Assembly (NCBI GenBank): GCA_903848125.1 | Contig: CAINFN010000273.1 | Coordinates: forward strand, 1-33,223 | Direction of reading: 5' to 3' | DNA length: 33,223 nucleotides | Source of the DNA: an uncultured Bacteroidota bacterium | GTDB taxonomy: Bacteria > Bacteroidota > Bacteroidia > Chitinophagales > Chitinophagaceae | The notes under the pieces: generated by a model | Databases searched by the model: none | What the model was told of the DNA's origin: nothing | The model's input: the letters and a program-made list of their open reading frames with translations, nothing else | Position numbers and translations under genes: made by a program | Shown here: positions 24,221 through 27,473 of the stretch, piece by piece | How the letters are laid out: every line of letters begins with the position of its first letter | How positions within the stretch are numbered: the stretch's first letter is position 1

Positions 24221-24640
24221 ATGCGCAAAATGACAAAATTAATATACGCTTTAGCGGTAGTAGCTGTTACAGCTTTAGGAGGCTACTATTATGTATTTGT
24301 GTATGCTAAAACGCATCATCGCAATGTGCAAACAGAAAAAGGGATAATTATTATTGCCGATTCATTGAGTGCGCAATTTCAGGCCAATGAAAAAAATGCC
24401 AACACTTTGTATTTAAATAAAGCAGTGGAAGTAAGCGGAAACATTGTTAGCATAGATAAAAATCAGGAAGGAAAAATTACCCTTATCATAGGCCGCGCCG
24501 ATTCTTTTTCTAATGTATCTGTAACTTTAATAAGCACTGCTCCAATTACTCAAAAAGTAGGCGAAACCATTACTATCAAAGGGGTTTGTACCGGCGCCTT
24601 AAGTGATGTGATTATTACAGAAGGGGTGGTGAAGCTCTAA
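24221..24640 (+). CDS. Membrane-anchored OB-fold (tRNA_anti-like) protein
   Basis: N-terminal TM (LIYALAVVAVTALGGYYYVFVYA), then LYLNKAVEVSGNIVSI...ITIKGVCTGALSDVIITEGVV, typical of tRNA_anti-like proteins. Confidence 0.7.
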   Translation: MRKMTKLIYALAVVAVTALGGYYYVFVYAKTHHRNVQTEKGIIIIADSLSAQFQANEKNANTLYLNKAVEVSGNIVSIDKNQEGKITLIIGRADSFSNVSVTLISTAPITQKVGETITIKGVCTGALSDVIITEGVVKL

Positions 24641-24896
24641 GATTTATAATGATATCTACATTGTATAACTATAATAGCATCACTATCAATTCTATAAACA
24701 ATCCTATGTTCAAGATTAATTCTTCTAGACATCCAACCGCTCATATTTCCTTTTAATTTTCTGGTTGTCCTATGCCTTGATTTGAGTTCCTTTTAATATC
24801 CTTAATAATGTCATTGATTTTTTTAAGTAACTTAATGTCATTAGCCTGCCAGTATTGATAGTCTTCCCAGCCTTCGTCTGAAAAAAGGACATTCAT
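24637..24896 (-). pseudogene. yoeB: YoeB-like toxin (mRNA interferase) with a 1-nt frameshift
   Basis: Hand translation of the minus strand: MNVLFSDEGWEDYQYWQANDIKLLKKINDIIKDIKRNSNQGIGQPE // KLKGNMSGWMSRRINLEHRIVYRIDSDAIIVIQCRYHYKS. The frame breaks at the A-run complementary to 24758-24761; length 260 nt is not a multiple of 3. Confidence 0.85.
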
Positions 24897-25147
24897 TATG
24901 TTATTTGTAATTTTTTAAAGCCCTTTTTTGATTTGTATTGTTTAATGGAAGCTTCTAGTCTTTTCGCGTTCGCTGGGCTACTTAATAGGTATAAGGTTTC
25001 ATTTAGGCTAGTATAATCCTCTTTAGATATTACAACGACATCTTCCCCTTGTTGTCTTTTAATAAAATTGGGTTTATGAGATAGCTCTAGACCATCTAAA
25101 TAAGATTTCATGTTTTGTCTAAATTCTGAATAGGTGGCAATGTCCAT
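24896..25147 (-). CDS. yefM: YefM/Phd-family antitoxin
   Basis: MDIATYSEFRQNMKSYLDGLELSHKPNFIKRQQGEDVVVISKEDYTSLNETLYLLSSPANAKRLEASI; its TAA overlaps the yoeB ATG (TAATG). Confidence 0.88.
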   Translation of the reverse strand: MDIATYSEFRQNMKSYLDGLELSHKPNFIKRQQGEDVVVISKEDYTSLNETLYLLSSPANAKRLEASIKQYKSKKGFKKLQIT

Positions 25148-25252
25148 AATAGTGTTTTTACAAAATTAATTAATAAAAATCACATTGTACATAATATTGT
25201 ACAATAATAATTTCTTAATTTCAAGTGCTAAAATATTAAATAGATAGGGTTG

Positions 25253-25278
25253 ATTTCCAAGTATTTACCGCAAGCTTT
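25253..25278. repeat. 26-bp direct repeat, left copy
   Basis: ATTTCCAAGTATTTACCGCAAGCTTT, identical to 26002-26027. Confidence 0.9.
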
Positions 25279-25329
25279 CAGAGGTTAATCCTGATACTAA
25301 CATTTATTATCGCAATAAAGAGTTATTCC

Positions 25330-25644
25330 TTAAAATAAATCACTTTCAGGACTATCTCCGTCTGCTATGGCTTTTTTAAATTGAGCTTCCCAAGTACTAG
25401 GTTTAAGATTCAATTTATTTTTAACGCTTTTACTTTTGGTATAACGCTTCGCTCTAACCAACTCAACTTCTTTAGTAATTTCTTTTAATGATGGAGCGGT
25501 TTTAGCCTTTGAACGAAGATTATTTAACACAGATTGTAAAGTATTTTTTGATGGCTTTTGAATAGTTATCCAATTTTTCTTTACCATATCTTTTAAGATA
25601 ACGTTAGCCTTAGGGTTCAATATGGTTAGTTCAATGGTTTTCAT
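25330..25644 (-). CDS. Putative TA-associated protein (antitoxin-like, 104 aa)
   Basis: MKTIELTILNPKANVILKDMVKKNWITIQ...SLKEITKEVELVRAKRY; small Lys-rich protein downstream of a UPF0175-like gene. Confidence 0.55.
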   Translation of the reverse strand: MKTIELTILNPKANVILKDMVKKNWITIQKPSKNTLQSVLNNLRSKAKTAPSLKEITKEVELVRAKRYTKSKSVKNKLNLKPSTWEAQFKKAIADGDSPESDLF

Positions 25645-25685
25645 AAAAAATTTTAAAGCTCTTCCTTTAAAATAATTAGTAATTA

Positions 25686-25913
25686 TTAAGCATATCTCAG
25701 ATCTGATTCTAAATCAGATGCAGGGTAATTGAAAACGGAGATGTTATATTTCCCCAATAACTCAATAAATGAATTTTTAGAACAGCCTATCATTTCTGAA
25801 GCCTGCCCTAAAGAGAGTTTCCCTATTTCATATAACCTTGTAGCTACGATAACCGTTAGTTCGTTGCTGTTGATTTCTACATTATCGGGGATATTTAAAT
25901 TCATACTCTTCAT
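25686..25913 (-). CDS. UPF0175-family protein (HTH antitoxin-like)
   Basis: TVIVATRLYEIGKLSLGQASEMIGCSKNSFIELLGKYNISVFNYPASDLESDL matches the UPF0175 signature. Confidence 0.8.
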   Translation of the reverse strand: MKSMNLNIPDNVEINSNELTVIVATRLYEIGKLSLGQASEMIGCSKNSFIELLGKYNISVFNYPASDLESDLRYA

Positions 25914-26001
25914 TATTCGAATTTAGAGAAAATATTGCCATTTTTCGTACCCTACAAATAATTTAATGTTAATCAGCGAATTAAGCACTTAAATCAATCC
26001 A

Positions 26002-26027
26002 ATTTCCAAGTATTTACCGCAAGCTTT
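26002..26027. repeat. 26-bp direct repeat, right copy
   Basis: ATTTCCAAGTATTTACCGCAAGCTTT, identical to 25253-25278. Confidence 0.9.
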
Positions 26028-26075
26028 TGGGGTATAAATGAATTGAACTAAATTGAGTGATCCTAAAAAGTCACT

Positions 26076-27473
26076 ATGAAAAAAGCAATCTTATTTACGA
26101 CAATCTTATTTAGTATTTGCATTGGAGCAAATCAAACCTTGAAAGCTCAAACTACTCAAGCCACCACCCCCTTCAGCAAGGAAGAACAAAAAGTAATGGA
26201 CTATATCGATGCCAATATGCCAAGGGCTATTGCGCTTTTAAAAGAATCGGTAGATATCAATAGTGGTACTTTAAACATAGAGGGCGTAAAAAAAGTAGGC
26301 GCCATTTTTGCGCGTGAATTTGAGAAAGCGAATTTTAAAACCAAGTGGGTGCCTATGCCCGATTCATTGCGCCGCGCAGGACATTTGGTAGCGAGTATTG
26401 GATTTAACAATGCCGCAGCAACTACCGCCGCAATAGAAAAGAAAACTGCTTCTAAAAAGAAAACCGAATTAGCTAAAACCAATAAAGGAAAAAAACTTTT
26501 TTTAATAGGACATTTAGATACGGTGTTTGAACCCGATATGCCTGCGAACCCATTCACCATGTTGAATGATTCCACCGCCACAGGACAGGGCGTGACTGAT
26601 ATGAAGGGCGGAGATGTAGTAATGATTATAGCACTACAAGCCTTACAGGCACAGGGTTTATTAAAGGACGCCAACATCATTGCTTATTTAACAGGAGATG
26701 AAGAACATGCAGGCAATCCACGTGAAGTGAGTAGAGGAGATTTTATTGAAACTGCTAAGCAAACAGAAATCGCTTTGGCATTTGAAGGGGCCAATGGATT
26801 AAATTCAGTAGCTACTGCACGTAGAGGTGCGAGTGGTTGGTTATTAAATGTAAAAGCAAAAACAGGACATAGCTCGGGCGTGTTTACACCCAGTGCAGGC
26901 TATGGTGCTATTTATGAAGCAGCCAGAATTGTAAATGAATTTAGAGTCCAGTTAAGTACCGAAAAATATTTAACCTTTAATCCTGGTGTATTTATTGGCG
27001 GATCAGAAATGAACTACGATGAAACCAAAGCAACAGGCACTGCTATTGGCAAATCAAATATTATTTCTCCTGCTGTAACGGTAACAGGCGATTTACGTTT
27101 TTTAACAGAGGAGCAAAAAATAAATGCAAGAAAAAAAATGCAAGCCATTGTTGATCAAAGTTTAGCAGGCACGAAAGCCACTATACATTTTGAAGATGGC
27201 ATACCTAGTATGGCACCAACGGATGGCAACAATAAAGTATTAGAAGTAATTAGTGGCGTGACGCAATCAATGGGCTTAGGCGCCACCACAGCAGGCGATC
27301 CAGGATCTCGTGGTGCTGGAGATATTTCTTATATCGCAGCTTATGTAGATTGTATTGATGGCTTAGGCTCTTCAGGAAGAGGTGCACATGCCCCAGGAGA
27401 AACCATCAATTTAAAAGAACTGCCTTATTTAATTAAAAGAGCAGCCTTGACTATTTATAGACTAAGCAAATAA
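26076..27473 (+). CDS. Exported M20-family metallopeptidase (glutamate carboxypeptidase-like)
   Basis: Signal peptide; LFLIGHLDTVFEPD, GQGVTDMKGGDVVMI, LTGDEEHAG, GAGDISYIAAYVDCIDGLGSSGRGAHAPGE motifs. Confidence 0.92.
   Translation: MKKAILFTTILFSICIGANQTLKAQTTQATTPFSKEEQKVMDYIDANMPRAIALLKESVDINSGTLNIEGVKKVGAIFAREFEKANFKTKWVPMPDSLRRAGHLVASIGFNNAAATTAAIEKKTASKKKTELAKTNKGKKLFLIGHLDTVFEPDMPANPFTMLNDSTATGQGVTDMKGGDVVMIIALQALQAQGLLKDANIIAYLTGDEEHAGNPREVSRGDFIETAKQTEIALAFEGANGLNSVATARRGASGWLLNVKAKTGHSSGVFTPSAGYGAIYEAARIVNEFRVQLSTEKYLTFNPGVFIGGSEMNYDETKATGTAIGKSNIISPAVTVTGDLRFLTEEQKINARKKMQAIVDQSLAGTKATIHFEDGIPSMAPTDGNNKVLEVISGVTQSMGLGATTAGDPGSRGAGDISYIAAYVDCIDGLGSSGRGAHAPGETINLKELPYLIKRAALTIYRLSK

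Follow-up and report, generated by a model that had tools for sequence, protein, structure and literature searches.

The window, the whole stretch of 33,223 bp analysed here, carries a group of small genes between two boundary genes: a tRNA_anti-like (OB-fold) protein gene on the left (24221–24640, + strand; PF12869, E 2.5e-15) and an M20-family peptidase gene on the right (26076–27473, + strand; PF01546, E 1.5e-18, and PF07687). Between them, the order is a frameshifted yoeB, yefM, an A-type flank, a 26-mer, ~54 bp of filler, a 104-aa ORF, a UPF0175 gene, a B-type flank, and a second copy of the 26-mer, followed by the peptidase gene. The tRNA_anti-like gene, a conserved left boundary, was found at the same place with 82–85% DNA identity in the genomes G483, G507, G508, G511, G400, and G512, and is partly or wholly lost in G498, G528, and G426; close orthologues of the M20 peptidase lie at the same place in related genomes.

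The initial annotation described a perfect 26-bp direct repeat enclosing a two-gene toxin-antitoxin (TA)-like cassette, and the repeat itself is borne out: ATTTCCAAGTATTTACCGCAAGCTTT is present at 25253–25278 and at 26002–26027 (+ strand), in the same orientation, 749 bp apart, and with 0 mismatches. Chance was rightly judged an unlikely origin, as 100 dinucleotide shuffles of the window yielded no match at up to 3 mismatches. The 1.84-Mb source assembly (metagenome-type; 274 contigs; 79% complete), of which the window is one contig, contains exactly two copies at up to 3 mismatches, and the 26-mer is therefore not a dispersed repeat; matches in the genus are likewise single, all at the M20 peptidase gene. 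GTDB contigs were scanned with a 19-base core of the 26-mer, which was found in seven stretches. Five of these are in Bacteroidetes/Chitinophagaceae/Sediminibacterium genomes, all directly 5' of the same M20-peptidase gene; for the remaining two (a Lactobacillus and a Spirochaetales), the likeness ends at the core plus a few bases. Other matches in the family, with one mismatch, had no similarity beyond the core. An exact search of viral contigs for the core gave no match, and a search of Rfam gave only a chance match far below the cut-off.

To obtain the set of alleles, the peptidase was searched in 147 genomes of the genus, mostly draft or metagenome assemblies, and the upstream regions were retrieved and aligned. 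The 26-mer is observed as a single copy in six other genomes of the genus (exact or with one to two changes), where it marks the upstream boundary of a conserved block; in the aligned alleles, it is the outer part of a ~75-bp block that reaches the peptidase start codon and is kept in alleles with and without a cassette. The rest of this block (26028–26075, + strand) shows 100% identity to G483, is also kept in G528, G512, and G400, and is the probable promoter or leader of the peptidase gene. G512, which has no cassette, retains only the inner part of the block, and the 26-mer is degraded in G400. The 26-mer normally occurs once, as a native part of the block upstream of the M20 peptidase gene, and is not a special insertion site; the right copy (26002–26027) is the native start of this block, and the left copy (25253–25278) can be read as the truncated edge of a former one.

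As first described, the ORFs between the copies encode a UPF0175 protein and a 104-aa protein. They do not make up a toxin-antitoxin pair: a type II operon has one toxin and one antitoxin, whereas both enclosed genes are of antitoxin type and the toxin gene is deleted. The UPF0175 gene (25686–25913, – strand; 75 aa; PF03683, E 5.3e-18) is intact and without its PIN partner, the site of the DUF3368 PIN toxin gene being reduced to a scar (25645–25685, – strand); the PIN gene is present in G508 (= L012) and G400, and the same scar is present in G507. In the 104-aa ORF (25330–25644, – strand), residues 1–73 match a VapB15-like antitoxin, a type partnered with PIN_3, and residues 66–104 match the C-terminal tail of a MazE-type antitoxin, a type partnered with MazF/PemK; judged from these matches, the protein is an apparent VapB/MazE-tail chimera. 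The VapB15-like antitoxin adjoins a PIN_3 gene in G483 and G496 and a similar ORF in G486, G439, and G219, and a MazE-type antitoxin with the matching tail adjoins a MazF/PemK toxin in the single case scanned (L087). The 104-aa ORF is intact in the window and in G400 and broken in G508 and G507, occurs within the genus only at this locus, and has a dN/dS of 0.3 against G400.

The yefM/yoeB pair that the initial annotation placed in the same hotspot holds for its antitoxin half: yefM (24896–25147, – strand; 83 aa; PF02604, E 8.7e-18) is intact, but the yoeB-type toxin gene (24646–24896, – strand) is frameshifted by the lack of one T in the T-run at 24757–24760 relative to L015 (= G498), such that the ORF stops after 47 aa and PF06769 covers residues 5–46 only; the homologue in G498 is intact and encodes 84 aa. 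YefM differs from that of G498 by 4 nonsynonymous and 11 synonymous changes (dN/dS ~0.08), and the UPF0175 protein from that of G508 by 5 and 11, respectively (dN/dS ~0.1); changes are mostly synonymous in both, but much of this divergence may predate toxin loss. Overall, the window has three intact antitoxin-type ORFs and no intact toxin.

The intergenic region between the tRNA_anti-like and M20 peptidase genes is a variable hotspot in the genus, at which small TA modules and other genes differ between genomes. In G498, an intact yoeB-yefM pair is followed by a single 26-mer and the peptidase gene. In G483 (= L014), the single 26-mer comes after genes for a PIN_3 toxin and a VapB15-like protein of 77 aa and has the same left flank as in G498 and the window. 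G508 has a frameshifted homologue of the 104-aa gene, the DUF3368 PIN gene, UPF0175, and a single 26-mer with two changes, and G400 has the same genes with the 104-aa ORF intact. In G511 (= L011), the PIN gene is cut to a short 5' remnant and UPF0175 is intact, and G507 has a 236-aa ORF without a Pfam match, a 104-aa gene with an internal deletion, a frameshifted UPF0175, and a single 26-mer with one change, and shares the PIN deletion of the window. There is no cassette in G528 (= L013) or G512, and G426 and G435 have a different gene in the slot; in G426 (L047, 2010–3305), this is a gene for an AAA_14/DUF4143 ATPase, which takes the place of the tRNA_anti-like gene, the TA modules, and the conserved block upstream of the peptidase gene. 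Five other cassette-bearing alleles (G483, G508, G511, G507, and G400) were searched across the region for exact direct repeats of at least 12 bp with copies more than 250 bp apart, and none was found. In more distant members of the genus (L071 and L072, from G486 and G496), a VapB15-like/PIN_3 module directly adjoins the tRNA_anti-like gene, and the hotspot is therefore possibly old or anchored on that gene. In the set of papers searched, there was no report on Sediminibacterium toxin-antitoxin loci.

Compared with these alleles, the window resembles two known alleles placed in tandem and connected by ~54 bp of unmatched filler. The A-type flank (25201–25252), upstream of yefM, runs into the 26-mer in G498 (88% identity) and, for its last ~37 bp, in G483 (84% identity). 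The empty-site alleles that a cassette would predict do exist in these two genomes, in which the left flank of the window, one 26-mer, and the right flank of the window are contiguous. The B-type flank (25914–26001), upstream of UPF0175, runs into the 26-mer with 95–98% identity in G507, G508, and G511, where this flank, a single 26-mer, and the peptidase gene are contiguous and alignable; both parental allele types are thus observed in relatives. Identities are mosaic: the yoeB-yefM segment is 94% identical, to G498 only; the segment with the deleted PIN gene and UPF0175 is 96% identical to G507 over its whole length; and the peptidase upstream block is 100% identical to G483.

The left join of the window reads A flank, 26-mer, and then CAGAGGTTAATCC, the filler (25279–25332) lying at the presumed illegitimate junction. 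No convincing match to the filler was found in the 147 genomes or elsewhere in its own genome, and its origin as a decayed remainder of the M20 upstream block was rejected, the alignment being no better than that of shuffled sequences (p 0.1–0.17). The motif TACTAACATTTAT(T/C)ATC is common to the filler (25295–25311) and the same hotspot in G528 (G528:C1:32320–32336), with p 0.006 for that target; these are the only two exact matches among the 147 genomes, both at the hotspot, and matches with one mismatch are at control level. This motif is a possible trace of the origin of the filler, as a weak lead.

We infer that toxin-antitoxin modules at the hotspot were exchanged by homology-facilitated illegitimate recombination, with the repeat as a by-product, and regard this scheme as the probable one. 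The resident in the window lineage would have been a yoeB-yefM allele as in G498, and the donor an allele of the 104aa-UPF0175 type found in G507, which had lost its PIN toxin beforehand. The donor DNA would have brought a peptidase upstream block of its own and recombined by homology on the peptidase side, while the other side would have been joined illegitimately and without homology, at a point 26 bp inside the resident block. Those 26 bp, left behind at the join, would form the left copy, and the repeat would therefore result from the join rather than cause it; once present, it could permit precise loss of the segment by slippage. The order of these events was reconstructed by parsimony on few alleles.

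The scheme is favored by the contiguity of both parental arrangements in relatives, the mosaic identities, the lack of repeats around other cassettes, the unmatched filler at the join, and the restriction of the core in GTDB contigs to sites 5' of the peptidase gene, bar the two distant taxa. In homology-facilitated illegitimate recombination, one of the two junctions lies within a long stretch homologous to the donor, as found here with G507, G508, and G511, and the other lacks homology, often with 3–10 bp of microhomology; here, the second junction has a filler that matched no donor sequence against which microhomology could be assessed. Also against the scheme, the two copies of the repeat are identical, whereas the alleles otherwise differ by 4–18%, which needs a recent origin or closely related parents, and the window is one contig of a fragmented, incomplete assembly. 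This type of recombination is documented in competent bacteria (PMC3240628), and a ComEC/Rec2-family gene is present in the genome, which is compatible with DNA uptake but is not a demonstration of it.

The initial annotation proposed a mobile or exchangeable cassette, and part of this proposal stands: the hotspot holds exchangeable DNA with empty sites, but a cassette of site-specific or integron-like type with the 26-mer as its border is not supported. Were the 26-mer a true site-specific site (integron-like, Xer/dif-like, or att-like), with the cassette mobilized by a recombinase in trans, the perfect repeat, the precise empty site, and the exchangeable TA cargo would be accounted for, and five Phage_integrase-family (tyrosine recombinase) matches in the genome could supply the enzyme. 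However, these matches are at family level and every control genome also has the family; no recombinase was found nearby, as first noted, and the contig of the window has no Phage_integrase-family match. Furthermore, no second copy accompanies the other cassettes at this place, there is no second 26-mer locus in the genome or genus, and the 26-mer belongs natively to the block upstream of the peptidase gene. No inverted repeat or symmetric half-sites occur within the 26-mer, unlike Xer/dif-type modules, which have inverted half-sites around a short spacer and a site on both sides; an integron would have an attC-type site at each cassette border, whereas the suggested attC-like fold was no better than in shuffles for the left copy on either strand, and for the right copy a weak hairpin was seen only on the + strand, with flank bases outside the repeat taking part. 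We consider a site-specific cassette highly unlikely. A further proposal, that recombination in this genus prefers the 26-mer upstream of the peptidase gene and keeps swapping TA modules there, and that the 104-aa chimera is a functional antitoxin against two unrelated toxin families that was kept after toxin loss, is in our view equally improbable.

The polarity of the change could be reversed, with the tandem older and single-26-mer alleles such as G498 derived from it by slipped-strand or RecA-mediated deletion. Loss between the two copies in the window would yield the flank arrangement of G498 and, at the 26-mer, that of G483; however, the 26-mer and block are also contiguous in alleles without any trace of a tandem (G528, G508, and G511), and the filler is found nowhere else, such that a single gain in the window is simpler and the reverse order seems unlikely. 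An assembly chimera of coexisting strains joined at the shared 26-mer would suit a metagenome-type assembly of 274 contigs and a genus in which the two parental allele types share this sequence, but joining G498-like and G507-like alleles there would give one copy, not two, and the join of 26-mer and filler would still be needed in some real molecule; there is little chance that the tandem arose in this way. A direct repeat flanking an insertion also recalls target-site duplication by a transposon or MITE whose ends have since been lost, although 26 bp is unusually long for such a duplication, and no terminal inverted repeats lie just inside the copies, positions 25279 and 26001 not being the outer ends of any pair of inverted arms. 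This explanation is already contradicted by the G507, G508, and G511 alleles, in which the inner right end is normal sequence adjoining the 26-mer with no repeat on the opposite side, and is scarcely credible.

Returning to homology-facilitated exchange, the hotspot has probably been varied by flanking-homology exchange and one illegitimate join, not as an integron-like cassette, and is ordinary in kind. It illustrates that a gene pair enclosed by a perfect direct repeat can mimic a mobile cassette even where the repeat is a by-product of allele joining. Toxins disabled and antitoxins retained at one place by different lesions bear on the decay of TA modules, and the locus also holds an apparent two-family chimeric antitoxin that is open to direct test.

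Integron cassettes and pdif modules carry exchangeable small TA cargo; unlike these, the present locus has no repeated site per cassette, no site symmetry, and no attC-like fold. Genes of the antitoxin-type UPF0175 family have been reported together with PIN genes (PMC2701414), and the COG2886/UPF0175–PIN pairs described there resemble G508 and G400, in which UPF0175 lies beside a PIN-type (DUF3368) gene, in contrast to the window, which has lost the PIN gene. Other bacteria commonly carry small variable segments of broadly this type, which have been attributed to illegitimate recombination assisted by homology (PMC2884548); like the hotspot, they are short, exchangeable, often intergenic between conserved genes, in some cases with short direct repeats, and without the hallmarks of mobile elements, whereas toxin-antitoxin genes make up most of the cargo here, in a freshwater and largely uncultured genus of the Chitinophagaceae. 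A closely similar scheme was proposed for the orphan immunity-gene arrays of the type VI system in Vibrio cholerae, in which a new module is placed beside the old via a conserved anchor and one illegitimate join, and the toxin part is lost while the protective gene is kept (PMC5361080); those arrays are built of effector-immunity modules, whereas the locus described here consists of toxin-antitoxin modules and has only three antitoxin-type genes.
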